This document shows, in pieces, positions 1-28,948 of a stretch of DNA of 57,313 bases (position 1 is the first letter of the stretch; each line of letters begins with the position of its first letter). The position numbers were made by a program, and so were the translations under genes. The DNA is from a virus, in the IMG/VR virus record IMGVR_UViG_3300033053_000010, positions 1-57,313 of that record; one strand, written 5' to 3'. Under the pieces are notes generated by a model. The model had not been told where the DNA came from. It did not search any database and was given only the letters and a program-made list of their open reading frames with translations.

Positions 1-223
1 CCTTTTTGTAAATATTTTGGAAATCGTATTTTATTATTTCATCAATTGCTCTTTCGTTCTCCACCTCGTTCTCTTCATCACTTAATTGTTCAGAGATCTT
101 AGACACCCTACTCAACAATGCACAAGTGTTATAACCATTAGTAACATCGAAGAGAAACCATTGACTGAACTCTTCTTGTGGATTGTATGGGTTATCGAAC
201 GTTGTTATTCTAGCTCTCTTCAT
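1..223 (-). CDS. Conserved phage protein, cut by the window start
   Basis: The gene starts with ATG at 223, one base after the stop of the RNA polymerase-like gene, and runs off base 1 with 74 codons visible. The N-terminus (MKRARITTFDNPYNPQEEF) and the stretch around FDVTNGYNTCALLSRVSK resemble a small family I recall from Firmicutes phages near the terminase genes; its function is unknown. The middle is acidic and the end basic. Read across the join to base 57313, the frame adds a Gly/Pro-rich tail, GPGGGGPKITPPL, and then TGA, giving 87 residues. A hairpin terminator follows in that circular reading. This explains the G-rich tract at the right end as coding sequence. Confidence 0.8.
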   Translation of the reverse strand, partial: MKRARITTFDNPYNPQEEFSQWFLFDVTNGYNTCALLSRVSKISEQLSDEENEVENERAIDEIIKYDFQNIYKK

Positions 224-224
224 G

Positions 225-2996
225 TTAACTCGCTTCTCCTTTCATGTAGTTCATAACGGTTGATGTTGATGCACCTACAGCTTGTGCTATCTGTGCTGTT
301 GTATAATTTCCTGATTGTATCATTTGATTTATTTTAGAAACTTTAATATTAGATAAAGTATTGGTTGTCCTTGGTGTTGCCAACTGCCTTAGTACATCCA
401 TGTCTGCATTGTTAATGATCTGTTGTAGTCTGTTTGGACTTATGGCACCAGCCTGTATAGCTTCCCATTCTCTATCATCTATCTTTATAGTCTCTCTCTT
501 AGCACCAACTTGAATTCTAGCAGCAGTTAATGCCTGTTGACTAACCTTCTTTAACTCACCTTTAGTCATGTCAGGATACTCTTGTTTCTTAGCTTTAATA
601 GTAGTATTAGCTATAACTTGAGCCCTTCTTTCTTTTGGTGCGTTCTTTAATGCTATGTTTAGTTTAGATTTTAAAGAGTTGAATTCATTTAAGTATTTAG
701 CTTTTGCTTCAGGATTATACTTAACATCTCCAGTACTCATCATCTCTTTACGAGCCTGATTAGCTAGAGACTTCATCTTGTTTGCATAATCGGCATAAGC
801 TTCCTCTTGTAGTGTTCCACTAGATAGGGTTCTAGCATCATTAGTTTCAGCCATGTTAGTAGACTTCTGCATTCTTGTTTGTATTTTACCATTCTTATCA
901 GTGTATTGTTGATAGTTCTCCTTCCATGTCTGCTCTCCAGTAACGGGGTCTATTATAGGGGAACCCTTTCTTTTGATGACTTGGTGTTCACCTTTAGCTC
1001 TAGATAATAGAGTTGATGCTCCACCTGAATGCCACTTACCTTGATCATCATAGTGACCTTGATATCTATTCTTTAATGATGCTATATCATTATCTATTTC
1101 AGACTTCTTATAATTTAAGATGTGCTTCTCAGCATCTATGACAACCATTGAATGTCTTACCGCTTTAGCTAATTCATCTTCTGTTGCACCCTTTAATGTC
1201 ATATCAGTTATTAAGTTTGAGATCTTACCCATTTCAGTTTGAGTATTCTTCATTCTTCTAAACTCATTACCATTAGCATCATAGTAATGATCGTTACCTT
1301 CTGCATCCTTCGTTGTCTTACTATACTTATATGATTTACTATCAAAGTCTTCCAAACCTTTTAACGGATTTGTAGATGTTATCTTTACGTTTTTGTTAGT
1401 TGGTATTGCTAACACCGTATCACCATCGAAATCCGCACCAGATAATCTCTCAGCAACCTTACTTGTTATGCCAACAGCATCTTTAGCATTCAAACCCATT
1501 GTTGCTCTGGCTTCTTTGTTCTTATTATTTACAGTTAAGATTGGTATCTCAAACGTTCCGCCATGTGGAAATCTAACAAGAGCTAACTTCTCACCATTCT
1601 CATAGTTTGGTGCATATACCTCATCATCTTTTAAAGAATTGATTGGTAGTATTACATGATACTTCTGTCTCGGTAATGCTGCTGATTTTAAATGGACAGC
1701 TGCAGAATCACAGTCATCTGAGAAAGATTTAAGTAAATTCTTTTTAATAGTTGGATTAGTTAATGATAATATTTCATTATACTCAGCTTCTCTTTCCTGT
1801 TTAGTAAGATCCAATTGTTTTTTAATTAGGGACAGATTTTGTTTACCTAGAAACTGTGATGGTAATTTATCTTTCCAATCATTCCAGTCTCCTTCATCAG
1901 CTCTCTTGTTTATAAGAGATAATGATTGTTTCTTTCCCGTAAGTGGATCTGTGAATTTTCCATTAGGATCGTCATATTTACTCTGTCCACCAGCTTTTAT
2001 TAGAGAACCAAACGGGTTGTCTGGATCCTCTTTTATTTTTTTAAGAACATCACCTTGTGGTGTACCAGTCTTTTTATTAGTGTTAAACCTAACGTCAACA
2101 CCCTTTGGTAAATCATCAGCATACACAGCCATACCTTTTAGATAATGTGTTCCATCCACCATTATTCTAACTTGGGCATAGTTAGAATTACCTAACGATA
2201 AATCTTTAACGCCTCTTCTTAATTCTATGACTCCATCCTTATGGATACCGCCAGTCTCAGCATAATTTATTTGTAACCTTTTACTATCTAAACTCGACGG
2301 ATAATGGAAAGTCTCGAATGTTTCCCCACCATCTCTAGATGTATAATTACCAATAGTGTTTACTTTCGAGAAGTCGTAAATATCTTTATGTTCTGTTCCA
2401 GGTGGACATAACACCTTTAAGTTTGTTTGTTGACCTTTATTGGTTGCTTGAGCAATTCCTCCTCCATATGTAGGATATCCTTGCATCTCTAAAATATATA
2501 GAGCAGTCTTTAGTTTTTCTTTAGATACGTTTAGTTCTCTCTCAACACCAGTACCAACATCGATCATTCCTTTTTCATCTACTTGTTTCTTTAGAAAGTC
2601 AGCAGTCTTGGTGGCTTCTTTCGATCGCTCTAAACTCTTCTCGTCCAGAATGGATCTAATGGATGAATCGTTACTGTAACCCATAATTTCAGCAGTCTTA
2701 GATAGAGAATATCCTTTATCTCTTAAAGCTTTAGCCTGTTCATACAATAACATCTTACGTTCGGAGTTAGCTAACGATATTTGAGTTCTTAATTTACTTG
2801 TTTGTGTTACTCCAGTTTTTGGATCTACAAAACCAAGGGTTTTAGCTACTTCTACTTCACTCATACCACTCTTTTTTAATTCATTAACCCTACTTAGGAA
2901 GTCACCACTATGTTGGTATGGGTCACCACCAGAACCCCATTTATATCTACCTGAATGTCTGGGGGTTCCATAATGTCTTAGGTTATCGCCATTCAT
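225..2996 (-). CDS. Candidate single-subunit DFDGD RNA polymerase with N-terminal virion-type tag
   Basis: This is a 923-residue protein. Residues 522-526 read D-F-D-G-D inside SGADFDGDTVLAIP, the catalytic magnesium-binding signature of two-barrel RNA polymerases such as bacterial beta-prime, YonO of phage SPbeta and the crAss-like phage enzyme. The region before it (GGTFEIPILTV, then GLNAKDAVGI) fits the barrel that precedes the loop. Helix-turn-helix-like segments lie near residues 44-58 and 90-115 and at the C-terminus (about 893-920, QIAQAVGASTSTVMNYM), which could help select promoters. The N-terminus (LRHYGTPRHSGRYKWGSG) resembles the tags on four head-module proteins. The start is supported by GAAGGTGAT upstream and overlaps the stop of the nuclease gene. 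A variant of the phage promoter lies ahead of this three-gene operon. The family call rests on one motif plus context, so a structural or nucleotidyl-transfer role other than transcription remains possible. Confidence 0.68.
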   Translation of the reverse strand: MNGDNLRHYGTPRHSGRYKWGSGGDPYQHSGDFLSRVNELKKSGMSEVEVAKTLGFVDPKTGVTQTSKLRTQISLANSERKMLLYEQAKALRDKGYSLSKTAEIMGYSNDSSIRSILDEKSLERSKEATKTADFLKKQVDEKGMIDVGTGVERELNVSKEKLKTALYILEMQGYPTYGGGIAQATNKGQQTNLKVLCPPGTEHKDIYDFSKVNTIGNYTSRDGGETFETFHYPSSLDSKRLQINYAETGGIHKDGVIELRRGVKDLSLGNSNYAQVRIMVDGTHYLKGMAVYADDLPKGVDVRFNTNKKTGTPQGDVLKKIKEDPDNPFGSLIKAGGQSKYDDPNGKFTDPLTGKKQSLSLINKRADEGDWNDWKDKLPSQFLGKQNLSLIKKQLDLTKQEREAEYNEILSLTNPTIKKNLLKSFSDDCDSAAVHLKSAALPRQKYHVILPINSLKDDEVYAPNYENGEKLALVRFPHGGTFEIPILTVNNKNKEARATMGLNAKDAVGITSKVAERLSGADFDGDTVLAIPTNKNVKITSTNPLKGLEDFDSKSYKYSKTTKDAEGNDHYYDANGNEFRRMKNTQTEMGKISNLITDMTLKGATEDELAKAVRHSMVVIDAEKHILNYKKSEIDNDIASLKNRYQGHYDDQGKWHSGGASTLLSRAKGEHQVIKRKGSPIIDPVTGEQTWKENYQQYTDKNGKIQTRMQKSTNMAETNDARTLSSGTLQEEAYADYANKMKSLANQARKEMMSTGDVKYNPEAKAKYLNEFNSLKSKLNIALKNAPKERRAQVIANTTIKAKKQEYPDMTKGELKKVSQQALTAARIQVGAKRETIKIDDREWEAIQAGAISPNRLQQIINNADMDVLRQLATPRTTNTLSNIKVSKINQMIQSGNYTTAQIAQAVGASTSTVMNYMKGEAS

Positions 2997-3556
2997 TAAA
3001 TATCACCTTCTTTTTTAATATCGTTTATTATTTTATCAAATGTTTTTATCTTATCCATTATTGGCAAGATCTCATCTGCTTCGGGAATATGATAAACTAT
3101 TTCGTCATTCTGATATATTCTTAATTCTATATCAATATCAGAAGGTTTTAATTTATATTCTAAACAAAACAATGCTGCATATATTAATAGTTGTTCTATA
3201 TGAGCTGGAGTAACCCCAGTTTTTAAATCATGTATTCGCAACAAACCACTTCTAAAAGATATAGCATCTGCTGTACCAAAACAATTATCTGAATAATATA
3301 ATATTTTTTCAGAACTCATTTTGTAACCGATAGCATCATTAACATATTTGTTTAAGGTTTTTTCACTCTTTGGTAGCTTCTGTCTCAACTTGATACAAGT
3401 AGATGCAAATTCGTGAAGCTCCGTTCCTTTTTGTGCTGCTACGGATCTAATATATGAATCTTTTAATTTGTCTTCAGAATAATTTAACCAACTATATTTA
3501 GAAGCGCTTAAATATGCATGTTTACCCTCAAGCTTTAAATGTTCGTTGAAGTTCAT
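2996..3556 (-). CDS. PD-(D/E)XK nuclease, RecB/Cas4-like
   Basis: The 186-residue protein has the RecB-family order of motifs: H48 in GTELHEF, D97 in GTADAIS, D110-L-K112 in IHDLKTG, then Q122 and Y126 in EQLLIYAAL. These residues bind metal and cleave DNA in the family. It probably acts as a 5'-3' exonuclease in phage recombination or DNA processing, although no single-strand annealing protein was recognised next to it. GGAGGAAG supports the start. It overlaps the VRR-NUC-like gene upstream by 29 bases and the polymerase-like gene downstream by one base, so the three are probably one operon. Confidence 0.8.
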   Translation of the reverse strand: MNFNEHLKLEGKHAYLSASKYSWLNYSEDKLKDSYIRSVAAQKGTELHEFASTCIKLRQKLPKSEKTLNKYVNDAIGYKMSSEKILYYSDNCFGTADAISFRSGLLRIHDLKTGVTPAHIEQLLIYAALFCLEYKLKPSDIDIELRIYQNDEIVYHIPEADEILPIMDKIKTFDKIINDIKKEGDI

Positions 3557-3818
3557 TTAATACTTCCTCCTTATTTTCAGGACATATGAATCTAGAGAAT
3601 GACATCTTATTCATCATATCTACAAAATATGATTGATTTGGTTGATGTGATGCGGTAGATGATTTTTTACATTCTAAAGAAGCCCATTTATCTTTGTATA
3701 AAATTAAAAGGTCGGGAATACCCTGAATATAATTAGGATCGTTTTTTAAAACAATACAACCCATGAACATATTTTTTATTCTCTTGATTAAATCGCTCTG
3801 AAATTTATTTTCTTTCAT
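3528..3818 (-). CDS. VRR-NUC-type nuclease
   Basis: A 96-residue protein with the compact VRR-NUC fold signature: G-I-P-D35-L in the first strand, then E49-C-K51 in LECKKS and a conserved Gln/Tyr helix (QPNQSYFVDMM). The family cuts branched DNA or is fused to helicases; phages use stand-alone copies. I place the start at ATG 3818, after GAGGGGGATC, not at the upstream alternative codon, because the binding site lies inside the longer frame. It is the first gene after the promoter variant at 3863-3888. Confidence 0.78.
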   Translation of the reverse strand: MKENKFQSDLIKRIKNMFMGCIVLKNDPNYIQGIPDLLILYKDKWASLECKKSSTASHQPNQSYFVDMMNKMSFSRFICPENKEEVLNELQRTFKA

Positions 3819-3862
3819 ACATTGATCCCCCTCATTATATTTATATAGCTTGTACACTCAAA

Positions 3863-4217: not shown

Positions 4218-4242
4218 CATTATATAACATGTATAATTCGCG
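4218..4242 (-). promoter_or_regulatory. Phage promoter motif (copy 2)
   Basis: Minus strand: CGC, six bases, TACA, four bases, ATATAATG. It lies 17 bases ahead of the start at 4201. The -10 part here is a near-perfect TATAAT. Confidence 0.7.
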
Positions 4243-4442: not shown

Positions 4443-4467
4443 CATAATAGGATATGTAAATATCACG
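4443..4467 (-). promoter_or_regulatory. Phage promoter motif (copy 3)
   Basis: Minus strand CGT, six bases, TACA, four bases, CTATTATG. It is 24 bases ahead of the GTG at 4419. Confidence 0.7.
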
Positions 4468-4731: not shown

Positions 4732-4756
4732 CATAATAGCGCTTGTAAATATGGTG
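4732..4756 (-). promoter_or_regulatory. Phage promoter motif (copy 4)
   Basis: Minus strand CAC, six bases, TACA, four bases, CTATTATG; 18 bases ahead of the ATG at 4714. Confidence 0.7.
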
Positions 4757-5647: not shown

Positions 5648-5672
5648 CATAATAGCCCATGTTTATTTAGTG
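5648..5672 (-). promoter_or_regulatory. Phage promoter motif (copy 5)
   Basis: Minus strand CAC, six bases, AACA, four bases, CTATTATG; 29 bases ahead of the ATG at 5619. Confidence 0.65.
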
Positions 5673-5897: not shown

Positions 5898-5922
5898 CAT
5901 AATAGTAAATGTATAAATTGCG
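5898..5922 (-). promoter_or_regulatory. Phage promoter motif (copy 6)
   Basis: Minus strand CGC, six bases, TACA, four bases, CTATTATG; 17 bases ahead of the ATG at 5881. It sits at the edge of the iteron region. Confidence 0.7.
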
Positions 5923-6444: not shown

Positions 6445-6469
6445 CATAATAGGAGTTGTATATAAAGCG
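6445..6469 (-). promoter_or_regulatory. Phage promoter motif (copy 7)
   Basis: Minus strand CGC, six bases, TACA, four bases, CTATTATG; 28 bases ahead of the ATG at 6417. Confidence 0.7.
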
Positions 6470-6731: not shown

Positions 6732-6756
6732 CATAATACCATATGTTTTTATCGCG
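6732..6756 (-). promoter_or_regulatory. Phage promoter motif (copy 8)
   Basis: Minus strand CGC, six bases, AACA, four bases, GTATTATG; 27 bases ahead of the ATG at 6705. Confidence 0.68.
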
Positions 6757-7078: not shown

Positions 7079-7103
7079 CATAATAGGAGATGTATGTCTG
7101 GCG
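7079..7103 (-). promoter_or_regulatory. Phage promoter motif (copy 9)
   Basis: Minus strand CGC, six bases, TACA, four bases, CTATTATG; 31 bases ahead of the ATG at 7048. The T-run that ends the tRNA-like transcript directly precedes it. Confidence 0.7.
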
Positions 7104-7114
7104 CAAAAAGAAAA

Positions 7115-7188
7115 GAGAATGTACGGGATTCGAACCCGTCCCTCACCAATATTTCAGGTGCGCTCCTACCATGATAGCTAACACTCTC
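7115..7188 (-). tRNA. tRNA or tRNA-like RNA with an irregular anticodon loop
   Basis: On the minus strand the 5' arm AGAGTGT pairs with ACATTCT over seven bases, the D-arm GCT-ATCATGGTAGG-AGC has the usual GG, and the T-arm is canonical (ACGGG, TTCGAAT, CCCGT). The anticodon arm has only four pairs (CACC with GGTG) around a nine-base TGAAATATT, or five positions with a T-T clash and a loop lacking U33. A GAA (phenylalanine) anticodon is the most natural reading but is not secure. CCA is not encoded. The -10 part of promoter copy 10 ends just before the 5' arm, so the transcript may begin at or next to the mature 5' end, and TTTTCTTTTT follows the 3' arm. It may be functional, decayed, or a tRNA mimic. 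Confidence 0.62.
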
Positions 7189-7189
7189 T

Positions 7190-7214
7190 CATAACACAAC
7201 ATGTTTTTCTCGCG
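7190..7214 (-). promoter_or_regulatory. Phage promoter motif driving the tRNA-like RNA (copy 10)
   Basis: Minus strand CGC, six bases, AACA, four bases, GTGTTATG. The tRNA-like 5' arm starts two to three bases below it. Confidence 0.65.
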
Positions 7215-7220
7215 CATATA

Positions 7221-8901: not shown

Positions 8902-8926
8902 CATAATAGGCGGTGTATAGAATGCG
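8902..8926 (-). promoter_or_regulatory. Phage promoter motif (copy 11)
   Basis: Minus strand CGC, six bases, TACA, four bases, CTATTATG; 32 bases ahead of the ATG at 8870. Confidence 0.7.
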
Positions 8927-15928: not shown

Positions 15929-15953
15929 CATAAGAGTAAGTGTTTTTATCGCG
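15929..15953 (-). promoter_or_regulatory. Phage promoter motif (copy 12)
   Basis: Minus strand CGC, six bases, AACA, four bases, CTCTTATG; 16 bases ahead of the GTG at 15913. It abuts the stop of the lipoprotein gene upstream. Confidence 0.65.
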
Positions 15954-17021: not shown

Positions 17022-17046
17022 CATAATAGCGCTTGTAAACATTGCG
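17022..17046 (-). promoter_or_regulatory. Phage promoter motif (copy 13)
   Basis: Minus strand CGC, six bases, TACA, four bases, CTATTATG. It starts four bases below the replisome gene and drives the structured RNA and probably SSB. Confidence 0.7.
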
Positions 17047-17049: not shown

Positions 17050-20000
17050 CTAATCGACAAATTGTGCAAAGTCGCCATATTTTTCAATAGCTTTTACTGC
17101 GTCATTAACCAGTTCGTTATATACGGTTCTGTCTATATTTTCTTCCTCATTAAGTTCCTTAACCATGTCAGACTCAAGCCAGTAATAACCTTTTGTTCCA
17201 TTTACTGCTCCATATTTTTTCTCACCAGTTTTCTTATCTATAGATTCCCTTAGTAATATACCACCATGTCCCTCTTTCATAGGACAGAACGAGCCAACCT
17301 TACCAATGAAATGTAAGTCACTAGAATCAATAGGCGGCTCTCCGGGATTCATATCCATATACATACATGAACTAACTGATTTAGTCTCACATAAATCTTT
17401 GAACTCTATTGGTTCTTTACTGAATAACTTCTTGAACACATATGGAACTTGGAATTGAGTTCCAGTAGCAGTCCATTCACCACCGTGGTCCTTACAATCA
17501 CCCGGAGTATACCCATATAATTTCTTACAGAGTTTCTCTGTCGCATATTTAGCAACATATACCGCATCATTTACTAGACACATTTTCTCATAAGTTGCCT
17601 CGTGCTCAAATTTATAACCGTATCGTTCTCCAAATTTCATAACATGCTCTATTATCTCAGGAGTAGCATTTGGTATTTTTATAGAGTCAGTCTTGACATG
17701 TGCAACAGTAAATCCAAGAGATTGAACCTCTTTCATTAGATCTATCATAAATAAAGCACCACGTTTGGCAACTATATTATCCTTATTCCTTATGTCCCTA
17801 AATGCATTATTAAAGGACGCACTAGTTAAACCATATGCTGAGTTTATAGGAGTCTTTAGCGCTGTACCTAGAGCCTTAGTTGAATATTCCCCGTCTTTTA
17901 ACACTTCATATAACATACCATCCAGTAATGATTTTATGGCTTCTTCATCATTATGTTTTATTGCTATTCTGGATTGAACTATATCCATGAATCTCTTTGT
18001 ATACTTTGGTCCAAATAAACACTCGGTTATCATTGAATGTGGATGCATTGATGCTACGTCCAATAACGCTACATTGTGATGTATTCCAGGCTCCGCATAC
18101 ACATATCCACCCTCACCCACTTCTTCACCTCTGTAAGTAGACTTTCCATTTTCAAATTTGTAACCCGGGAAGAAAGGTAATAAACTCTTTTCTCCATTCC
18201 AAGCTTCAAATCTTAGAGGTAATATGTTGTTATGTTTTATGAACTCATACATATCCATATTTATAGTGTCAAAAGGAACATATTTTTCTTTGTTAAAGAA
18301 ATCATCTGGGTCGTCATCCTGAGGTCCAAACATCATCTCATCTGGATAATATACTGGTAACGACATATCTCTATAATTGAATTCATCATGCGGGTTCTTG
18401 TTCTTCCCAAATACTATTCTAGTAGATAAAGTATTCGTTGTATCATTAACGGACATGTCAGCCATTTTTGCTAGAATTTTTCTAGCTGTCCAGTCATTCT
18501 TCAAATAATTAAACGTTGCCTCTGTAGCAAGAACATCATCATCACAATATTCAGCAACCTTCAACCATTTTTCCTTAGGTACTGGTTGATCCCAAGGTAA
18601 TCCTAATTCATGATGTTTAAGTCCTAATTGTATTTCGTATTTTTTCAAAGATTGTTTATTTGGTGCTGACGCGAAATCATATACGTCTGTATAAGATAAA
18701 TTATATGCTTCACCAAAGAATGCATTCTTATCACCAGATATAATCCTTTGAGATAATCTATATAGTTGCTCATTAGTATATCCCATTAGACACCCATATA
18801 ATATATGATTATCATATCGTCTACAATTGAAACCAACTAGATTGAAATTCAACAATTCCTCTATCTCTGCTGGTTTAGGATTTATCATTCTTACAACGGG
18901 TTTGCCTTCACCTTCTATTTTCCAATTTACTAGAAATAGATTTGGGAATACCTCAACGTCATAAAATATAATATCGTCTTTTTTACTTCTAACTGCTACG
19001 CTAGGGTCTTCTGATTTAAAACTCATCTTGTTAACAAGTTTTATACAATAATCAGATTGATTTGTACTATTTGCAGCGAATGCTAAAACCGCATTTCTCA
19101 TATCTGTTAGATCATATGGAAATCCTTCTTTCTTAGCATCCTCTAATATTTTATATATGAAATCAACACTAGGTTTAGTTCCTTGATGTATCTCTTTTTT
19201 CAAATTTTTCTTAACCATTACACGTAATATTTTTTCGTTCTTAATGATGCTGTTATCGATCATATTCTTTTTACCCTCCCTTAGTGGTAATCCAGAACTT
19301 ATCTCATTGATTGGTAGATTATTACATTTAGTCAATTTCCTTCTCAATGATGAATTACCATTGTACACCTTGACCTCTATATGTTCACCATATATTCTAC
19401 TTAGTTTACTGACATCACCTTTATAAATATAATGTAAGTGTATACCGGCTCCACTTTTACTTAATTCAGAATATGTTTCAGGCCATTTATTAGCTTCTTT
19501 CAAATTTAACTCTAGTGATTTATTGCCATTTTCATCAGGTATATCAAAATCTATTACTATGTGATTTTCTGGTACTTTAACATAATGTACTTTTTTAGTG
19601 TCGATATCTTTTAATTTGGTCCTAACATTATCCCATTTATATGTTGGTATTCCTTCATCGTTTGCTAATTGAGCCATACTATCTTTCATCTGTTTATCAA
19701 ATATGGATTCTATATTTTCCTTGAAATCAATCGAGTATCCATTAACAACGACTTCATCCTCATTTTCTTCGTCCTTATTATTGGTAAATATGCTTTTCTT
19801 GAAACCAACATATGCGTTTCTAACCCTTACCCCGTCAATAGCATCTCTTTCTTTAAAGTCATCAAAATAGTTTTTGAGTTCCTCTTTGAAAACTCTTTGC
19901 GTGAAAGGATATGGTATATTTGATTCTTCACAATAATTCTTATACATTTCCCAAGCAGCCTTCAAGGTGGTTGAATCATCTTTTGAAAATACATAATATG

Positions 20001-21078
20001 AATCTAATATAAAGTTATAAAAATCATTTGATGCGCCTAACATATTTACAGGTATGTAACTGTCATAATAATTAGGGTCAGCCTCAAAGACTTCTTTACA
20101 ATGATACGCTATACCACTTAATTCAAACTTTATATTTGACATTATATGAGTATATTCCTCATAACTCAATTTGTTCCCTGAAGGGGATACGTCTATAAGT
20201 CTTCTTATCAAACCAGATTTAGCATCGGTTATTTTTACAGGTTTGTTAGTACCCATAAATAAGAAAGCTTTAAACTTAGAAGCGTAAGTTGATTTGAATT
20301 TTTCATTAACAGTCATCAACTCGTGTGATACCAAACTATTAAGTCTAGTATTATCTTCTATCCTTGATAAGTCACCATCATGTTGTATTGATACTAATGG
20401 GTTATTCTTAAAAGCTTCTAATGCAAATGAATTACTTGAAGAGCCAAGAGCTTTGGCGTCGAATACTGAATAATAACCTTTGAATAATTCCTGTATTATG
20501 TTTAATATAGTACTCTTACCAGCTCCAGCAGAACCATATAACACCATAAATTTCTGAATGTGTTTAGACTCACCGGTTATGATAGAACCTATAGCCCATT
20601 CAATTTTATGACGTTCTTCAGGTGAATATAGAATCCCTATTAGTTTATCGAAACCAGAATATGAACCCTTTATCAATGGATAATCCAAAACTCTACTTGC
20701 ATATTCCTTCTTATCCAGTTTACTATTTGAGAACATTATTTTCTCATCAAGAGATACATAATTATCTCGCATTTGTTTCTGACAATATTTGTGCCAGTTG
20801 TCTATCATTCCGGTTTCAGCATCCCACATGTGTAATATTTTCACATCTGAATTAAAAGTGTCTTTATTCTTTTCAGCATACTCATCTAATATTTTATCTA
20901 TTATCATTAATGCATCATTTTCATCAGTACACCAAAGACCTTTATCCTCATCCCAAATTGAGTAGAAATCACCTCCCCTAATCATTAAATCTGAACTTTT
21001 TTTAATTATGAATTTTGGATATATTTCAATACATCCACGCTTTGTACTTCTAGAAGACACCATTAAAAAGTCGAGCAT
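17050..21078 (-). CDS. Replisome fusion: SF3 helicase, AEP-like primase, 3'-5' exonuclease and family B DNA polymerase
   Basis: One 1342-residue open frame holds four activities in order. (1) A superfamily 3 helicase: Walker A GSAGAGK188ST, Walker B LVSIQHD234GD, motif C FLFMGTNKP (272-280) and Arg finger GLIRRLIDV (about 288-296), preceded by a D5-type N-terminal domain. (2) An AEP-primase-like segment with D510-F-D512, S-G-A-G-I-H547 and E568 in IEVKV. (3) A DEDDy exonuclease with D707-V-E709, GFNCRRYDN (about 750) and Y844-C-D-D-D848. (4) A family B polymerase: motif A D1007-V-A-S-M-H-P, motif B K1075-TPINSAYG and motif C K-T-D1131-S. Motif C has K-T in place of the usual D-T. GGGGG lies 12 bases ahead of the ATG. 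The fusion could replicate the whole genome with SSB and the SF2 helicase. The primase part is the least certain. Confidence 0.85.
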   Translation of the reverse strand: MLDFLMVSSRSTKRGCIEIYPKFIIKKSSDLMIRGGDFYSIWDEDKGLWCTDENDALMIIDKILDEYAEKNKDTFNSDVKILHMWDAETGMIDNWHKYCQKQMRDNYVSLDEKIMFSNSKLDKKEYASRVLDYPLIKGSYSGFDKLIGILYSPEERHKIEWAIGSIITGESKHIQKFMVLYGSAGAGKSTILNIIQELFKGYYSVFDAKALGSSSNSFALEAFKNNPLVSIQHDGDLSRIEDNTRLNSLVSHELMTVNEKFKSTYASKFKAFLFMGTNKPVKITDAKSGLIRRLIDVSPSGNKLSYEEYTHIMSNIKFELSGIAYHCKEVFEADPNYYDSYIPVNMLGASNDFYNFILDSYYVFSKDDSTTLKAAWEMYKNYCEESNIPYPFTQRVFKEELKNYFDDFKERDAIDGVRVRNAYVGFKKSIFTNNKDEENEDEVVVNGYSIDFKENIESIFDKQMKDSMAQLANDEGIPTYKWDNVRTKLKDIDTKKVHYVKVPENHIVIDFDIPDENGNKSLELNLKEANKWPETYSELSKSGAGIHLHYIYKGDVSKLSRIYGEHIEVKVYNGNSSLRRKLTKCNNLPINEISSGLPLREGKKNMIDNSIIKNEKILRVMVKKNLKKEIHQGTKPSVDFIYKILEDAKKEGFPYDLTDMRNAVLAFAANSTNQSDYCIKLVNKMSFKSEDPSVAVRSKKDDIIFYDVEVFPNLFLVNWKIEGEGKPVVRMINPKPAEIEELLNFNLVGFNCRRYDNHILYGCLMGYTNEQLYRLSQRIISGDKNAFFGEAYNLSYTDVYDFASAPNKQSLKKYEIQLGLKHHELGLPWDQPVPKEKWLKVAEYCDDDVLATEATFNYLKNDWTARKILAKMADMSVNDTTNTLSTRIVFGKNKNPHDEFNYRDMSLPVYYPDEMMFGPQDDDPDDFFNKEKYVPFDTINMDMYEFIKHNNILPLRFEAWNGEKSLLPFFPGYKFENGKSTYRGEEVGEGGYVYAEPGIHHNVALLDVASMHPHSMITECLFGPKYTKRFMDIVQSRIAIKHNDEEAIKSLLDGMLYEVLKDGEYSTKALGTALKTPINSAYGLTSASFNNAFRDIRNKDNIVAKRGALFMIDLMKEVQSLGFTVAHVKTDSIKIPNATPEIIEHVMKFGERYGYKFEHEATYEKMCLVNDAVYVAKYATEKLCKKLYGYTPGDCKDHGGEWTATGTQFQVPYVFKKLFSKEPIEFKDLCETKSVSSCMYMDMNPGEPPIDSSDLHFIGKVGSFCPMKEGHGGILLRESIDKKTGEKKYGAVNGTKGYYWLESDMVKELNEEENIDRTVYNELVNDAVKAIEKYGDFAQFVD

Positions 21079-22353: not shown

Positions 22354-23298
22354 TCACATTAAATCCCATATATTTCCGTCAACATTGAAGTCTAACAATA
22401 TAGAAGATCTATGACCATTTACGAAGTCTCTTCTCTCTTCGCTTATAGTTTCGTTAGTATAATCGTTTCTATAACCTTCAACCATCACATCGTATATACC
22501 GAAATCGACATAATTATCCCCAGAAGGATTATCCGGATTATATACCCAACCAACTATCTGTCCTTCTTTTGAGTCTTTAATACCTAACATTTTATAAACA
22601 TCATTTAAGAATAAATATCCCTGAGCCACTAATCTATCATTAGCATGTTGTTGTTGCGCTTTTAGGAACATCAAACTATATTCAGGATCTTTATCCCATC
22701 CGTCACAATTCTCATCAAAGAATCTAGCATAATCACTACATGTGTTTGGATTAGTAACAACGTCTACAGTCTCTTTTTTAGTCTTACCATTTTCGTCAGT
22801 AACTGATATTTTCTCTGCCTTTATACCGTGTCTTAATTCGTAGTCAATTCTTTCACCATATTTATCAACAACGTTCTTTCTGTATCTAGCAAAAGATTCT
22901 GAAACAGTTGTGAAAGCAGCAGCCAATGCAGCATTTCTTCTATTTAATATTCTATTTGATTGTATTAATGCGGCAATTGATATTCCACCAACCACAACGG
23001 CAGGGGCATATAATTTAGCAATATTTAATCCTCTTGAAACATATACTATAGCTAGATCTTTTCTAGCGTTCTCGGATGTATAATCAACCACACTTTCATC
23101 AGCTTCTATTTCACGTATTTTTCCAATTGTCTCCTGGGATTGATCTATAATATCACTTAATTTTAATGTTGCCTTACAAGCCATCACGCTTGCGGTAACC
23201 ACACCGATTATTCCACCAATCATAAATATCTGTGGTGATTTTTTAATAGCTCCGAATTTGAATTTATTTAAACTTTGTATCATTTTTTGTTTATTCAT
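22354..23298 (-). CDS. DUF6353-like membrane protein, copy A
   Basis: A 314-residue protein with two membrane segments in the N-terminal third (about 22-42, IFMIGGIIGVVTASVMACK, and about 92-112, YAPAVVVGGISIAALIQSN). A long helix, RRNAALAAAFTTVSESFARY, precedes a soluble domain with FLNDVYKMLGI, GQIVGWVYNPDNPSGDNYVD and SILLDFNVDGNIWDLM. The products of 24810-25538 and 26766-27485 share the same order, so this is the largest of three paralogues. Family function is unknown; a membrane platform is a fair guess. AAAGATG precedes the ATG. Confidence 0.75.
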   Translation of the reverse strand: MNKQKMIQSLNKFKFGAIKKSPQIFMIGGIIGVVTASVMACKATLKLSDIIDQSQETIGKIREIEADESVVDYTSENARKDLAIVYVSRGLNIAKLYAPAVVVGGISIAALIQSNRILNRRNAALAAAFTTVSESFARYRKNVVDKYGERIDYELRHGIKAEKISVTDENGKTKKETVDVVTNPNTCSDYARFFDENCDGWDKDPEYSLMFLKAQQQHANDRLVAQGYLFLNDVYKMLGIKDSKEGQIVGWVYNPDNPSGDNYVDFGIYDVMVEGYRNDYTNETISEERRDFVNGHRSSILLDFNVDGNIWDLM

Positions 23299-24781: not shown

Positions 24782-24806
24782 CATAATAGCGTGTGTATAT
24801 TCTGCG
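24782..24806 (-). promoter_or_regulatory. Phage promoter motif (copy 14)
   Basis: Minus strand CGC, six bases, TACA, four bases, CTATTATG; 33 bases ahead of the ATG at 24749. It begins four bases below the stop of the DUF6353 copy B gene. Confidence 0.72.
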
Positions 24807-24809
24807 TGT

Positions 24810-25538
24810 TTAATAATGTATAGGTACTACTTCATAATCTATTACTAAACATGGTTCACCATTATCAGCGATGGATGAACTATAACTAACCTCTAGATAT
24901 TCCTTATCAATATCCCATCCGAGTTCGCATCCAATTTTTACAACGTTTATACCAAGTTCTATATAGAAATCATTTAGTTGTATTGTCATGTCATTTCTTA
25001 ATCTCTTATTTATCACATTTACCGCACGATCAATTTCCTCAGTACTACCTCTAAAATATCGTCCAGACATACTATCATATATCAGGATATTTCCTTTGGA
25101 GGTAACCATAACTTCCTTATTTCCAATAGGATCTCTTCTTAGTTTCTCAGCAGCCACTTCTCTTCTTATATCATCATATTTTTCTGGATCTACAGAATCC
25201 TTAACCTTTTCCTTAAATATTCGGAACGCTGATTCTGATGCTGTATACGCAGTAGCCACTGCGGCCAACTTATTATTTGTTATGTTTCTTGAAAATACTA
25301 TTTGTGTTATACCAACCCCGGCAAGTAATACGGGCGGTATATATAACGGAGCTATTGCTTTCACCTTTTCCATAGTAGTCTCGTTCTTCTTTTTTTCAGC
25401 TATCTTTAAAGCCTTTGGTGTTTGTTTTATTCCTAATATTCCACCAGCTAATATACAACCGACACCTCCGACTAAAAGTAAATCAGAAGCATTCCTCGAT
25501 ATAAGTTTTTGTGCGTCTTTAAAATATGGTATCATCAT
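24810..25538 (-). CDS. DUF6353-like membrane protein, copy B
   Basis: A 242-residue paralogue of the 22354-23298 product. Membrane segments lie at about 20-38 (LLVGGVGCILAGGILGIK) and 66-83 (APLYIPPVLLAGVGITQIV). The shared helix is NKLAAVATAYTASESAFRIF, and the soluble end has LNDFYIELGINVVKIGCELGW and SSIADNGEPCLVIDYEVVPI. It is shorter than copy A by about 70 residues. AAGGAGG gives the start. It is followed directly by promoter copy 14, with no hairpin between. Confidence 0.74.
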   Translation of the reverse strand: MMIPYFKDAQKLISRNASDLLLVGGVGCILAGGILGIKQTPKALKIAEKKKNETTMEKVKAIAPLYIPPVLLAGVGITQIVFSRNITNNKLAAVATAYTASESAFRIFKEKVKDSVDPEKYDDIRREVAAEKLRRDPIGNKEVMVTSKGNILIYDSMSGRYFRGSTEEIDRAVNVINKRLRNDMTIQLNDFYIELGINVVKIGCELGWDIDKEYLEVSYSSSIADNGEPCLVIDYEVVPIHY

Positions 25539-25560
25539 TTTTCCTCCTTAATAATCAAAA

Positions 25561-25591
25561 CAAATAGTAAGAGTCTTTGTTAAGACCCCAC
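25561..25591 (-). terminator. Hairpin terminator after the 25591-25737 gene
   Basis: Minus strand GGGTCTTAACAAAGACTC followed by TTACTATTTGTTTT. Confidence 0.72.
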
Positions 25592-25737
25592 TATTTTTTA
25601 TTGAGATGTTTACTAACTTCCTTTGCAATTTTAATGTCCAGTTTCTTATCGTCTAATATTCCTGTTGCTATTTGTAATCCTATTCCGATCACGCTTAACG
25701 CTATTCCTGTCATTTTGATAACTTTTTCTGTACCCAT
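25591..25737 (-). CDS. 48-residue membrane peptide
   Basis: It begins MGTEKVIKMTGIALSVIGIG, has one membrane helix over about residues 5-25, and ends in a basic helix (DDKKLDIKIAKEVSKHLNKK). AGGAGTGG precedes the ATG. It is a one-gene unit with promoter copy 15 and a terminator. Unknown function. Confidence 0.68.
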   Translation of the reverse strand: MGTEKVIKMTGIALSVIGIGLQIATGILDDKKLDIKIAKEVSKHLNKK

Positions 25738-25769
25738 ATTATCCACTCCTAAAATTAATATTTATTTCT

Positions 25770-25794
25770 CATAATACACTATGTTTTTGTTGCG
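25770..25794 (-). promoter_or_regulatory. Phage promoter motif (copy 15)
   Basis: Minus strand CGC, six bases, AACA, four bases, GTATTATG; 33 bases ahead of the ATG at 25737. Confidence 0.68.
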
Positions 25795-25800
25795 TGAGGT

Positions 25801-25829
25801 ACAACAAAAAGAAAGAGCCTAAGCTCTAC
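25801..25829 (-). terminator. Hairpin terminator after the 25826-25990 gene
   Basis: Minus strand AGAGCTTAGGCTCT followed by TTCTTTTTGTTG; the stop codon lies at the stem base. Confidence 0.82.
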
Positions 25830-25990
25830 TTTTTTAAGATTTCCAATAATTTAATTTTTCTATCTATCATTTTTTCATATATTGGTATTTGATCCATCAA
25901 TTTGTAAGTCATAGCAGACTCGAGTTCTTTCTCGTTCTTTTTTATTTCTCTTACTAATCTTGATATTTCAGTTTCCATATTATTACACAT
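25826..25990 (-). CDS. 54-residue coiled-coil peptide
   Basis: A fully helical, charged protein (starts MCNNMETEISRLVREIKKNE) with a heptad pattern through most of its length. The GAGGTA site precedes the ATG at 25990. It is a one-gene unit with promoter copy 16 and a tight hairpin terminator. Unknown function. Confidence 0.66.
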   Translation of the reverse strand: MCNNMETEISRLVREIKKNEKELESAMTYKLMDQIPIYEKMIDRKIKLLEILKK

Positions 25991-26022
25991 AATAAATACC
26001 TCACTTTAATTATTATTTTTCT

Positions 26023-26047
26023 CATAATAGCCCTTGTAATCCTTGCG
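26023..26047 (-). promoter_or_regulatory. Phage promoter motif (copy 16)
   Basis: Minus strand CGC, six bases, TACA, four bases, CTATTATG; 33 bases ahead of the ATG at 25990. Confidence 0.72.
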
Positions 26048-26054
26048 CAAAGAT

Positions 26055-26084
26055 TAAAAGAAAAAGAAAGAGCCGAAGCTCGAT
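26055..26084 (-). terminator. Hairpin terminator after the 26098-26292 gene
   Basis: Minus strand GAGCTTCGGCTC (TTCG tetraloop-like) followed by TTTCTTTTTCTTTT. Confidence 0.85.
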
Positions 26085-26097
26085 CTTTTCTGAATAA

Positions 26098-26292
26098 CTA
26101 TTTAGTTGGTATAAATGCTTGAATAACTTTGGCTGCTTCTTTTAGTATTGCGTTAGCTACCGTATTGTGTGAAACCTTAACATATTTACCTCCTTCAGCT
26201 ACTGCTGCAAAGACGTACTCAATTTTGTTTTCATTACAATAAGTATCTACCTTTCCTACTAATTCGTTTAAACCATTCATTTTTTCTTCCAT
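26098..26292 (-). CDS. Hypothetical 64-residue soluble protein
   Basis: It has an alpha/beta pattern: helix LNELVGKVDTYCNENKIEY, strand VFAAVAEGGKYVKVS, then a helix with AILKEAAKVIQAFIPTK. This looks like a compact folded domain without membrane segments; no family is recognised. GGAGG lies eight bases ahead of ATG 26292, the third possible start in the frame. It is a one-gene unit with promoter copy 17. Confidence 0.68.
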   Translation of the reverse strand: MEEKMNGLNELVGKVDTYCNENKIEYVFAAVAEGGKYVKVSHNTVANAILKEAAKVIQAFIPTK

Positions 26293-26323
26293 TTTCATTA
26301 CCTCCAAAAATTTAATTATTTCT

Positions 26324-26348
26324 CATAATAGCACGTGTAAATTGTGCG
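26324..26348 (-). promoter_or_regulatory. Phage promoter motif (copy 17)
   Basis: Minus strand CGC, six bases, TACA, four bases, CTATTATG; 32 bases ahead of the ATG at 26292. Confidence 0.72.
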
Positions 26349-26349
26349 T

Positions 26350-26376
26350 GAAAAAAGAAAGAGCCTAAGCTCTACT
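26350..26376 (-). terminator. Hairpin terminator after the 26379-26471 gene
   Basis: Minus strand AGAGCTTAGGCTCT followed by TTCTTTTTT, the same stem as at 25801. Confidence 0.82.
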
Positions 26377-26378
26377 TT

Positions 26379-26471
26379 TTAAAGACATTTCTTTACGACG
26401 TTTAAATATGATACTGTTATAACTCCAATAGTTACAATAAACACTATTTTAACTACATTATTATTACCCAT
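26379..26471 (-). CDS. 30-residue membrane peptide
   Basis: It starts MGNNNVVKIVFIVTIGVITV and is a single membrane helix ending VVKKCL. GGGGTG lies ahead of the ATG. Despite its size it has its own promoter copy (18) and terminator, which argues that the peptide is really made. Confidence 0.62.
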   Translation of the reverse strand: MGNNNVVKIVFIVTIGVITVSYLNVVKKCL

Positions 26472-26502
26472 TATAAATCACCCCATAAATTAATATATTT
26501 CT

Positions 26503-26527
26503 CATAATAGTACATGTAAATTACGCG
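26503..26527 (-). promoter_or_regulatory. Phage promoter motif (copy 18)
   Basis: Minus strand CGC, six bases, TACA, four bases, CTATTATG; 32 bases ahead of the ATG at 26471. Confidence 0.72.
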
Positions 26528-26530
26528 AAC

Positions 26531-26557
26531 AAAGGGGAAGAGTCTTTGTTGGACTTA
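26531..26557 (-). terminator. Hairpin terminator after the 26555-26707 gene
   Basis: Minus strand AAGTCCAACAAAGACTCTT followed by CCCCTTTG. The T-run is poor, so termination may be partial. Confidence 0.55.
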
Positions 26558-26707
26558 TCGTCCAGCATTAACCCTTTCCACAAATTGCTTAAATCTATCA
26601 CTTGCCTTGTTCATATCAACAGTTATTACCTTAATCTCTATTGGTTTATTTTCTTTCTTTTCCTCTTTCTTGAATAATCCACCTATAGTCTTTAAAATAT
26701 TTTCCAT
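26555..26707 (-). CDS. 50-residue basic peptide
   Basis: It starts MENILKTIGGLFKKEEKKEN: an amphipathic first helix that could lie on the membrane, a lysine-rich stretch, then a strand (IEIKVITVDM) and a helix. AGGAGTG precedes the ATG. It is a one-gene unit with promoter copy 19. Function unknown. Confidence 0.64.
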   Translation of the reverse strand: MENILKTIGGLFKKEEKKENKPIEIKVITVDMNKASDRFKQFVERVNAGR

Positions 26708-26737
26708 TTCAAATCACTCCTATTATAATATATTTCT

Positions 26738-26762
26738 CATAATAGTAGTTGTATAATATGCG
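26738..26762 (-). promoter_or_regulatory. Phage promoter motif (copy 19)
   Basis: Minus strand CGC, six bases, TACA, four bases, CTATTATG; 31 bases ahead of the ATG at 26707. It abuts the stop of DUF6353 copy C. Confidence 0.72.
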
Positions 26763-26765
26763 TAC

Positions 26766-27485
26766 TTAGAACATATCGTAATTCACTCTCGGTTGGTTTG
26801 AATAATTCAAATAATAATACTCACAACCAGCATCGTCTTCCATTTTTCTATGTTCGAAATCAACCCACGGGTTAGTCGTTGTAGACGCATATCCTTCACA
26901 TACAGACCAACCCAGAATTTCCCCAGCCTCTGTTTGTGGTATACCTAATAATCTATAGAATTCATTAAGAGACGCATGACCAACTATTGATAATTGTTTA
27001 TTGAATAGATATTCAGCTTTAAGTACGTTTTCTATTGTGCTTGAGAAAAACTTAGAAGTATATTCTTCGTAGAATATCTTCTCACCCGTCCTTTCAAGGT
27101 AAAGATCTTTAGGTACCTTATTTTTAACAGTTTCCTTCATTATTTCTTCTTTGGTTTGTTGATTACAAGTATGATCTATATTCTCCCTCAAAGATTTATA
27201 GTTGTCTTGTACGGACGTTAGGGTGTTTAACAACGCTATTTTTTCATTCATGGTTACTTTATCAGAATATATAATACATAACATTGTACTTGTCATTATC
27301 ATACCCGATGGAATATAACACTTCCAAGTTCTTTTTATTTTCTCTCTTAGTGTCATATCGTCATCTATTAATTTACAAGCTTTATGCGTATCCTTTATTG
27401 CTGAATACATAGTCAACCCAACACCAACTACGGAAGCAAAGTTTAATATAAATTGTTTATCCTTTCTTATTATGTTTTTTATCAT
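26766..27485 (-). CDS. DUF6353-like membrane protein, copy C
   Basis: A 239-residue paralogue of the products at 22354-23298 and 24810-25538. It has hydrophobic segments at about 12-28 (FILNFASVVGVGLTMYSAI) and 53-69 (CYIPSGMIMTSTMLCIIY), then the common soluble end with SLNEFYRLLGIPQTEAGEIL, GWSVCEGYASTTTNPWVDFE and LNYSNQPRVNYDMF. Aspects closest to copy A are the L-G-I...G-x-I-x-G-W motif and the aspartate-ended segment. GGAGGG gives the start. Confidence 0.74.
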   Translation of the reverse strand: MIKNIIRKDKQFILNFASVVGVGLTMYSAIKDTHKACKLIDDDMTLREKIKRTWKCYIPSGMIMTSTMLCIIYSDKVTMNEKIALLNTLTSVQDNYKSLRENIDHTCNQQTKEEIMKETVKNKVPKDLYLERTGEKIFYEEYTSKFFSSTIENVLKAEYLFNKQLSIVGHASLNEFYRLLGIPQTEAGEILGWSVCEGYASTTTNPWVDFEHRKMEDDAGCEYYYLNYSNQPRVNYDMF

Positions 27486-27507
27486 GTTTATCCCTCCTGA
27501 TTATTTA

Positions 27508-27532
27508 TAAAAAGAAGAGCCTAAGCTCTAAT
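27508..27532 (-). terminator. Hairpin terminator after the 27528-27719 gene
   Basis: Minus strand AGAGCTTAGGCTCT followed by TCTTTTTATAAA. Transcription of DUF6353 copy C downstream then needs read-through, as no phage promoter copy lies between. Confidence 0.75.
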
Positions 27533-27719
27533 TTTCTTTGTTGAGAAGTTCTCCTAATTCGTTTCTTAATGCTTTTATAATAGGACTCAACTCTTCTGTT
27601 TTGCTGATACGTCCTTCTACGAATTTTAATTTACCGTAAGCATATACCCCGTAAATAGCCGTTCCTATAAGTCCTACACCACCAACAACAATCGCTAATT
27701 TTTCCTTATCATTAAACAT
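27528..27719 (-). CDS. Small membrane protein
   Basis: A 63-residue protein with an N-terminal Gly-rich membrane helix at about 8-28 (LAIVVGGVGLIGTAIYGVYA) and a charged helix (GRISKTEELSPIIKALRNEL). AGGAGTG lies ahead of the ATG at 27719. It is driven by promoter copy 20. Function unknown. Confidence 0.7.
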   Translation of the reverse strand: MFNDKEKLAIVVGGVGLIGTAIYGVYAYGKLKFVEGRISKTEELSPIIKALRNELGELLNKEN

Positions 27720-27734
27720 ATTAATCACTCCTAA

Positions 27735-27962
27735 TTATTTATTTCTCATAATAGTAGTTGTATAAGATGCGCGTTGATCTTTTATAGGTTTACCAGTTAA
27801 TGTTATTTTAGACGATTGCAAAAGACCATATTGTTTTTTAAATTGACTACTCAAATTACTAATAGCTTTTTTTTCAGAAATAGCATACGTCTCACCTCGC
27901 CATTTTGAAGTCATTAATCGACTAATACCCATAACAGGACCTTCGTAAATATAATGATCCAT
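27735..27962 (-). CDS. Hypothetical protein whose 3' end overlaps the next promoter
   Basis: A 75-residue basic soluble protein (starts MDHYIYEGPVMGISRLMTSK) with SNLSSQFKKQYGLLQSSKIT and a strand-forming end. Its last codons run through promoter copy 20, so its C-terminal TTTIMRNK is encoded by the promoter's -10 region. Such overlap suggests the true end may once have been earlier. GGGGGATG gives the start. I recall similar proteins in other Firmicutes phages but know no function. Confidence 0.68.
   Translation of the reverse strand: MDHYIYEGPVMGISRLMTSKWRGETYAISEKKAISNLSSQFKKQYGLLQSSKITLTGKPIKDQRASYTTTIMRNK
27747..27771 (-). promoter_or_regulatory. Phage promoter motif inside a coding end (copy 20)
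   Basis: Minus strand CGC, six bases, TACA, four bases, CTATTATG; 28 bases ahead of the ATG at 27719. It lies within the last 13 codons of the upstream gene. Confidence 0.7.
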
Positions 27963-27985
27963 TTATTCATCCCCCATAAAATATA

Positions 27986-28168
27986 TTATTTGCGTTTTCT
28001 TTTAGATATCAACGTTTCTGCTAATTTCATTTGTCCTTCGCGATCTCTATCAGCATATATATCACCTAACCAACTTCTTGTTATTGGTCTATTTGCCCAA
28101 GGTTTAAGAACGTTTGCCCTCTGTCTCAATTCTTGTTGTTTTTGTATGTGTCTATCTCCTCTTCCCAT
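27986..28168 (-). CDS. Small very basic protein
   Basis: A 60-residue Arg/Lys-rich helical protein (starts MGRGDRHIQKQQELRQRANV) with WANRPITRSWLGDIYADRDR in the middle and an SKRKRK end. It could bind nucleic acid. AGGAGG precedes the ATG. It lies between the 3D-domain protein and the 75-residue gene, with spacing that fits one transcript. Family unknown. Confidence 0.7.
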   Translation of the reverse strand: MGRGDRHIQKQQELRQRANVLKPWANRPITRSWLGDIYADRDREGQMKLAETLISKRKRK

Positions 28169-28188
28169 TATAATTACCTCCTAAATTA

Positions 28189-28737
28189 TTATTTAATTAT
28201 GTAACCTTTAACTTTTACTACACCCATTGAATTGACTCGTCTCTTATATTGATAGTCGCTCTCCCCCTTTCTTCTAGATATGAAAACGTCAAGTCGATGT
28301 CTAGTATTAAAATTATTTCCACCTCTATCGGCCACTACCAATTCACCATATTCGTTTGTAATTATCTTAGTTCCTTGTCGTAACACATTGTTGGCTACCA
28401 TTCCAGATCTTAGTTTACTACCACTACAAGTAATTGGACCATACCCATTTTCTTCATCAAGACTCGTGTAAAAAGTTAATACGAATGTTTCTTCCTGTAT
28501 ACTTCCACCCCTTGATATGTCTCTTTTTTTAACATCTCTCGATTCTTCCATTTTGACTTGTTTAACCAATAGTTGTTGGAGTGCAAAATTTCTCACTTTT
28601 AAATCTCTATCAAATTCTTGACTAATAAACGATAGATATTTTTTTCTTACCTCTTTCCTATGATTGACATTGTTCACTAAATTAATGGATATTAACAATA
28701 CAATTGTAAGTTTGATTAATGCTATTTTTTGTAACAT
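28189..28737 (-). CDS. 3D-domain (RlpA/MltA-like barrel) cell-wall protein, membrane-anchored
   Basis: A 182-residue protein. Residues 5-22 (IALIKLTIVLLISINLVN) form an uncleaved or signal-like membrane anchor, then a basic helical stalk. About 85-182 match the 3D domain, named for three aspartates, found in YabE/YocH-type wall proteins: TFYTSLDEENGYGPITCSG, GTKIITNEYGELVVADRGG and RHRLDVFISRR. Related barrels cut glycan strands as lytic transglycosylases. It could loosen the wall for lysis or entry, yet it lies away from the lysis genes. AAAGGTTG precedes the ATG. Confidence 0.8.
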   Translation of the reverse strand: MLQKIALIKLTIVLLISINLVNNVNHRKEVRKKYLSFISQEFDRDLKVRNFALQQLLVKQVKMEESRDVKKRDISRGGSIQEETFVLTFYTSLDEENGYGPITCSGSKLRSGMVANNVLRQGTKIITNEYGELVVADRGGNNFNTRHRLDVFISRRKGESDYQYKRRVNSMGVVKVKGYIIK

Positions 28738-28767
28738 GTTTACACAACCTTTCTTAATCGTTTGTAG

Positions 28768-28813
28768 AAAATAAAAAGAAATAGAGTTGTAGGGAGAGAC
28801 GAACTCCTACAAC
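28768..28813 (-). terminator. Hairpin terminator after the 28.8 kb micro-transcript
   Basis: Minus strand GTTGTAGG and CCTACAAC form an eight-pair stem, extended by AG/CT, followed by TCTATTTCTTTTTATTTT. Confidence 0.82.
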
Positions 28814-28869
28814 GGCGAGAGGGTTTTCACCTCCAACATTCGCTTCACACCGTGTCTATTTCTGATCAT
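28807..28869 (-). CDS. Twenty-residue basic micro-peptide or small RNA
   Basis: Promoter copy 21 and a strong terminator bracket about 115 bases with only one translatable frame: GCAGGAGGG, then ATG at 28867-28869, 20 codons of basic and hydrophobic residues (MIRNRHGVKRM at the start), then TAG within the terminator stem. The leader holds a perfect tRNA T-arm-like hairpin (28893-28909). It may encode a peptide or act as RNA; the strong ribosome site favours translation. Confidence 0.5.
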   Translation of the reverse strand: MIRNRHGVKRMLEVKTLSPL

Positions 28870-28892
28870 AGATAGTCCCTCCTGCTTTTTCA

Positions 28893-28945: not shown

Positions 28946-28948
28946 TGG

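Follow-up and report, generated by a model that had tools for sequence, protein, structure and literature searches.

A predicted two-barrel RNA polymerase with a head-protein-like tag and candidate promoters of its own in an IMG/VR phage record

Virion-delivered two-barrel RNA polymerases (RNAPs) are known from a few phage groups. Virion delivery of the enzyme has been described for P23-45 and for crAss-like phages (PMC10770324, PMC10172136). Phages P23-45 and P74-26 have phage-specific promoter motifs and single-chain two-barrel polymerases, of which gp64 and gp62 are non-virion enzymes and gp96, a portion of the tape measure protein, is the packaged virion RNAP (PMC10770324). The crAss-like phage phi14:2 encodes gp66, also a two-barrel RNAP (PMC10770324), for which the record annotation notes virion detection by tandem mass spectrometry, and YonO of SPbeta is a further single-chain DxDGD enzyme (PMC5467207). 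Here, we analyzed the 57,313-nucleotide IMG/VR record IMGVR_UViG_3300033053_000010 over its whole length (the window), in which the gene at 225-2996 encodes a candidate polymerase of this kind. With a probability that we put at about 0.7, the sequence evidence points to a virion-packaged polymerase with its own promoters that would transcribe the early half of the genome without host sigma factor. The fold, the motif and the tag considered below, together with the distributions of the latter two, are computed.

225-2996, minus strand: predicted single-subunit two-barrel RNAP of 923 residues, with DFDGD at residues 522-526, the barrel region at about 230-535 and helix-turn-helix (HTH) segments at about 35-120 and 880-920

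The open reading frame (ORF) starts with an ATG at 2996. A sequence-only reading had pointed to this gene, to its DFDGD motif and to HTH-like segments near both ends of the product, and all three were borne out. DFDGD is invariant across 46 aligned relatives, in which the invariant residues are, in order, K287, R475-x-PH478, DFDGD526, MG590-x2-SN594 and D621. K287 and the nearly invariant K308 stand where basic residues of the second barrel are expected, an assignment by position alone. The N-terminal segment matched Pfam HTH_7 in two stretches (best 85-106, E=2.5e-4, under Pfam's cut-off) and the DNA-binding phrog_664 (residues 35-109, E=1.6e-7). The C-terminal segment matched HTH_38/29/23 (residues 888-917, E=0.003-0.006, under the cut-offs) and the HTH family phrog_3855 (residues 881-919, E=6e-6), and the helix pattern of the AlphaFold2 (AF2) model is compatible with both segments. 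As matches, those of both segments are weak.

The full AF2 model, built on the alignment of 46 relatives, had a mean predicted local distance difference test (pLDDT) score of 82, with residues 1-23 below 50; a core model of residues 184-735 had a pLDDT of 84. Foldseek comparison of the full model with the PDB returned QDE-1 and RDR2 with probability 1.00. The core model matched QDE-1 (2j7n, E=1.6e-9), the non-virion RNAP gp62 of P74-26 (8f5m, E=4e-8) and the non-virion RNAP of AR9 (E=5.5e-3) as well as RDR2 and short stretches of cellular beta-prime, and a Foldseek search of BFVD yielded phage models labeled 'RNA dependent RNA polymerase' and RlpA, a double-psi barrel. The invariant DFDGD and the matches to QDE-1, gp62 and RlpA are those of a metal-binding DxDGD in a double-psi barrel. 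On the matches to QDE-1 and P74-26 gp62 the protein is predicted to be a single-subunit two-barrel RNAP of the same deep family as the cellular RNA polymerases, an assignment that the modeled fold strongly supports. Of the proteins named for comparison in the sequence-only reading, beta-prime was matched in pieces by fold; profile comparison did not reach YonO or crAss gp66 significantly. Searching PDB sequences with either the protein or the family profile found no significant RNAP; the P23-45-type tape-measure RNAP 8h2n appeared around DFDGD with E=0.48.

Among these systems, the best fold match is to QDE-1 and RDR2, which are, however, eukaryotic RNA-interference enzymes. The P23-45 and P74-26 enzymes are likewise single-chain and two-barrel, with the strong match to gp62, but the protein of the window is separate and tagged where gp96 is part of a tape measure protein. 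gp66 of phi14:2 differs in its 2180 residues, its place among structural genes, its lack of profile similarity and its different carriage. YonO has several of the invariant motifs in the same order: the pattern R-x-PH / DxDGD / Gx[IV]SNx[IL]T / [IV]DxxK, chosen post hoc when both alignments had been seen, was present in 40 of the 46 family members and in 14 of 24 members of the YonO family, and shuffling the window protein 20,000 times never produced it. The profile match to YonO was nevertheless not significant, and neither the tag pattern nor the DNA motif was found in the SPbeta stretches searched. A YonO-like filing was tried and rejected, since the hhalign links to YonO, gp66 and P23-45 gp64 (a weak alignment, probability 3.6) were not significant.

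The closest family is phrog_4291, of which the polymerase is a whole-length member (E=0 over residues 3-920), with 49% identity to the 'putative RNA polymerase' of Faecalibacterium phage FP_oengus and 38% to orf75 of Lactococcus phage 1706. Many viruses that infect Gram-positive bacteria have a member of the family. The nuclease genes precede the RNAP gene in most of these relatives, the same small protein follows it and the same N-terminal tag is present. tblastn with a coverage of at least 80% found homologs in 249 phage records, including phages of Arthrobacter, Gordonia, Streptomyces, Curtobacterium, Rhodococcus, Microbacterium, Bifidobacterium, Faecalibacterium and Lactococcus. Depositors usually labeled them RNA-dependent RNA polymerase or HTH protein, otherwise hypothetical protein and once 'excise'; no experimental basis for the 'RNA-dependent' label of phrog_4291 was found. 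The family is known by annotation only, and the literature searchable for it is silent on promoter motif, tag link and packaging; literature searches for the tag, DUF7211 and the RNAP family gave no match, and virion proteomics is absent from the Arthrobacter and Streptomyces papers checked.

The repeats of the window reduce to a minus-strand motif, CGCr-N5-WTACA-N4-CTATTATGA (3' part also given as CTATTATG). With up to two mismatches, the core occurs 24 times against 0.11 expected, always on the coding strand. The copies are confined to 3.9-30.1 kb, and the structural half of the genome contains none. Most are followed by a start codon 8-34 nt downstream, mostly of early genes; 14 of 25 copies have a T-tract within 60 nt upstream (2.6% of random positions), and the early region has 16 terminator-like hairpins against 1.6 expected. 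By inspection, the motif was judged non-sigma70-like, no -35-like hexamer being present at sigma70 spacing. A scan for sigma70-like sites as an alternative gave 43 against 32.9 expected (standard deviation 5.7), which is no clear enrichment.

2-223, minus strand: small conserved protein directly downstream of the RNAP gene, phrog_4303, running off the contig
2996-3556, minus strand: Cas4-like exonuclease of the RNAP operon, phrog_3953, E=1e-81
3528-3857, minus strand: VRR-Nuc-type endonuclease of the RNAP operon, phrog_93, E=2e-16; VRR-Nuc is annotated at the equivalent place in Streptomyces phage Bilo
3909-3944, minus strand: candidate promoter of the nuclease-exonuclease-RNAP operon
4218-4242, minus strand: promoter-like motif copy, two mismatches
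4443-4467, minus strand: promoter-like motif copy
4732-4756, minus strand: promoter-like motif copy
5648-5672, minus strand: promoter-like motif copy
5898-5922, minus strand: promoter-like motif copy
6445-6469, minus strand: promoter-like motif copy
6732-6756, minus strand: promoter-like motif copy
7079-7103, minus strand: promoter-like motif copy
7182-7217, minus strand: weaker promoter-like copy (position weight matrix score 22) at the 5' end of a tRNA-Ile gene (7114-7188)
8902-8926, minus strand: promoter-like motif copy
15929-15953, minus strand: promoter-like motif copy, two mismatches
17022-17046, minus strand: promoter-like motif copy
24782-30060, minus strand: early-gene region with twelve motif copies (24782, 25770, 26023, 26324, 26503, 26738, 27747, 28921, 29232, 29485, 29756, 30036); a terminator-like hairpin stands before many of them

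A matrix was trained on 22 copies from the window, a set to which the copy at 3944-3909 does not belong. Run over 80 RNAP loci (652 kb), it gave 150 hits in the orientation of the RNAP and none in the reverse orientation. Of 65 RNAP loci, 61 had the promoter-like element before the operon, with the consensus CGCgAAAAAaACATnccCTTTTATGAaGAGAgA, about 870 to 1125 nt upstream of where the RNAP ORF starts. Arthrobacter phage CapnMurica had seven matrix copies, BitterVaud1 and 1706 five each, FP_oengus two and Bilo one, phage 1706 with a local variant, CTATAGTAGAAAG. The motif is found across host phyla, in phages of Arthrobacter, Bifidobacterium, Lactococcus, Streptomyces and Faecalibacterium. Control stretches without this RNAP (sk1, phiC31, FP_Mushu, SPbeta, phi14:2 and P23-45) gave no matrix hit, and 78 YonO loci gave two borderline ones. 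When contigs were selected by the motif, 34 of 50 viral contigs had the RNAP, and in those 34 a comparison of two tables showed motif and RNAP strands to agree. A search of 257 Gb of genome sequence from bacteria and archaea found four occurrences of a stricter form of the motif, in four genomes that all have the RNAP.

The second feature of the polymerase is its N-terminus, where residues 8-21 read HYGTPRHSGRYKWG and eight of the first 23 residues are invariant in the 46 relatives; these 23 residues are also the least confident part of the AF2 model.

2928-2996, minus strand: coding region of the N-terminal tag, L-x-HYG-x5-GRYKWGSG, residues 1-23; sequence invariant, model low-confidence
48749-50440, minus strand: head maturation protease, phrog_3270; labeled capsid protein/protease in phage 1706
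50472-51734, minus strand: portal protein, phrog_12
51724-53469, minus strand: terminase large subunit, phrog_9, E=1.7e-108, adjoining the tagged proteins
53482-54120, minus strand: DUF7211-tagged head-module protein, 212 residues, HFGI[KR]GMKWG, above the Pfam cut-off
54126-54644, minus strand: DUF7211-tagged head-module protein, 172 residues, HFGI[KR]GMKWG, above the Pfam cut-off
54648-55589, minus strand: DUF7211-tagged head-module protein, 313 residues, HFGI[KR]GMKWG, above the Pfam cut-off, with a weak ADP-ribosyltransferase match
55540-56022, minus strand: divergent DUF7211-tagged protein, 160 residues, phrog_6291, HFGVIGMKWR, DUF7211 E=2.9e-4, below the cut-off

The four head-module proteins to which the sequence-only reading had likened the polymerase N-terminus are all present. 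A pattern covering both kinds of tag, written post hoc with the tags already known, found four window ORFs (the RNAP and three head proteins), where shuffled proteins gave an expectation of 0.0. Pfam places the head-protein tags in PF23847 (DUF7211; three above the cut-off, the fourth below), a 25-residue family without an assigned function in Pfam, whose model the RNAP variant mostly escapes. Tags of the type L-x-H[YFW]G-x-KGMKWG were present on one to five proteins per RNAP genome examined, most of them close to terminase and portal, and the RNAP began with L-x-HYG-x5-GRYPWG, with variants; six control phages had no tags of either pattern. The GRYPWGxG form belonged to the RNAP in 112 of 118 ORFs found, the other six being two probable short RNAP ends and four other proteins. 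Contigs selected by the tag matched the RNAP in 25 of 38 cases (one very weakly), and in 19 of 22 when at least 40 kb long. Separately, L235 encodes at 157-3798 (minus strand) three adjoining small proteins that bear HYG...SGRYPWG, the tag of the RNAP type, and one of them contains a GNAT acetyltransferase domain.

The RNAP tag appears to be a variant of the DUF7211 tags. It is rather unlikely that the two are unrelated look-alikes, as the lack of any match between Pfam DUF7211 and this RNAP at E<=10 would allow, given that a DUF7211 search reached the N-termini of three RNAP relatives (E=2e-4 to 7e-4) and that the SGRYPWG form is also found on small non-RNAP proteins, one a GNAT enzyme like a DUF7211 carrier. 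DUF7211 carriers include ADP-ribosyltransferase-, GNAT-, papain-fold deamidase- and 2'-5' RNA ligase-like proteins. The product of 54648-55589, which matched the ADP-ribosyltransferase exoenzyme family PF03496 just under the cut-off (E=1.3e-4), is a possible co-injected effector; a packaged effector already known is T4 Alt, which is also an ADP-ribosyltransferase.

Packaging of the polymerase is suggested indirectly. In phage 1706, both tagged proteins, orf7 and the RNAP homolog orf75, are annotated 'structural protein', orf75 lying far from the structural genes; the tag is common to head-module proteins; and the RNAP operon has its own motif copy, which is most easily explained if the enzyme arrives with the DNA. 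An operon dependent on its own promoter would need a first supply of enzyme, and virion delivery would provide it. The RNAP would be loaded into the phage head, probably via the HYG...SGRYPWG tag, and would enter the cell together with the DNA. There it would recognize CGCr-N5-WTACA-N4-CTATTATGA, probably by its own terminal HTH domains, as the promoter of the early genes and of its own operon. RNA starts would be expected just 3' of TATTATGA, and the early half of the genome would be transcribed without host sigma factor. Such a start of the program fits the non-sigma70-like motif and the failure to recognize a sigma factor among the window proteins searched.

Several points weigh against a packaged polymerase with its own promoters. 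The RNAP gene lies outside the structural module, and the 'structural protein' label of 1706 is a deposited annotation. Whole-model template-modeling scores were low (0.3-0.4), and hhalign gave a probability of 1.6 for the profile link to YonO, in which R-x-PH...DxDGD aligned nonetheless, and 0.3 against the single gp66 sequence. TATTAT/TATAAT in the motif is -10-like and the host enzyme might therefore use it, 16 of the 50 motif-selected contigs lack the RNAP, and the many core genes common to these phages mean that the motif could belong to another core factor.

Some of these points would suit a non-virion polymerase made after infection from a host-readable promoter and then transcribing middle genes, as P23-45 gp64 and YonO do, with the tag otherwise used, for example in assembly or protein-protein contact. 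The gene stands in the replication/recombination half beside nucleases, its closest phage structure is that of non-virion gp62 and the motif has its -10-like element. We nevertheless regard this as unlikely in view of the structural annotation of the 1706 homolog, the tag shared with head-module proteins and effector-like enzymes and the same motif before the polymerase's own operon.

Less probable still is that host RNA polymerase reads the motif with another conserved phage factor, an activator or sigma substitute, the two-barrel enzyme being otherwise used, for example in priming. About 25 core proteins of the window are also present in five reference phages, and therefore co-occurrence with the motif does not single out the RNAP and alone is no proof that it reads the motif. 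Co-occurrence tests are also limited in that many IMG/VR contigs resemble fragments of one lineage. The same terminase (68-81% identity) was present on 18 of 19 checked RNAP-negative or near-negative contigs, which therefore belong to the same lineage, many being probably incomplete. Several of the motif-selected contigs without RNAP have this terminase and may be incomplete, and others may be single chance hits. Against another factor, the RNAP was the only protein of the shared core with an HTH found among those searched, no sigma factor was recognized there, and no DNA-binding domain was found in the three DUF6353 paralogs and the phrog_4079 core proteins, checked as alternative regulators. 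Moreover, a primase domain is already present in the related replicase GP55 of phage 1706 (PMC12205980), inspection of the motif showed no -35-like hexamer at the spacing of sigma70 promoters, and the scan gave no clear excess of sigma70-like sites. That the motif is an operator array for repressor binding is very improbable, for although its many intergenic copies recall stoperators, it is asymmetric, always in gene direction and mostly at a similar distance before start codons, and it is present in the virulent phage 1706.

Further observations concern the lineage and the rest of the window. A 53.8-kb IMG/VR contig (G012, of L114) has the terminase and the tag of the lineage and lacks the RNAP, a replicase homolog and any motif match; its early region may differ from that of other members, or the contig may be incomplete. 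The DUF6353/phrog_2152 paralogs of the early region (22354-23298, 24810-25538 and 26766-27485, minus strand) are conserved in the lineage, and 17050-21078 (minus strand) encodes a homolog of the four-in-one replicase GP55 of phage 1706 (PMC12205980). At 28890-28935 (minus strand), a sequence similar to the 3' part of a tRNA, GGTTCGATCCCC, directly follows a strong motif copy, and ARAGORN found no complete tRNA at this place; an Rfam search gave no match. The tape measure gene (41437-42366) contains repeats spaced by about 171-177 nt.

Beyond the packaged polymerase itself, we give even odds to a wider proposal, in which the DUF7211/SGRYPWG tag is a general cargo-sorting signal in a large Gram-positive siphophage lineage. 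The head would be loaded with the early RNAP and with effector enzymes (ADP-ribosyltransferase-, acetyltransferase- and deamidase-like), and the polymerase would start the program from a self-recognized promoter kept across host phyla. If the packaged-polymerase reading is true, such a polymerase is present under other labels in about 250 phage records, those of Lactococcus, Streptomyces, Arthrobacter, Gordonia and gut Firmicutes phages, and comes with a defined promoter and a short tag for packaging. These records would offer laboratory-tractable phages for sigma-free initiation and for protein loading into heads, and DUF7211 would gain a testable function.
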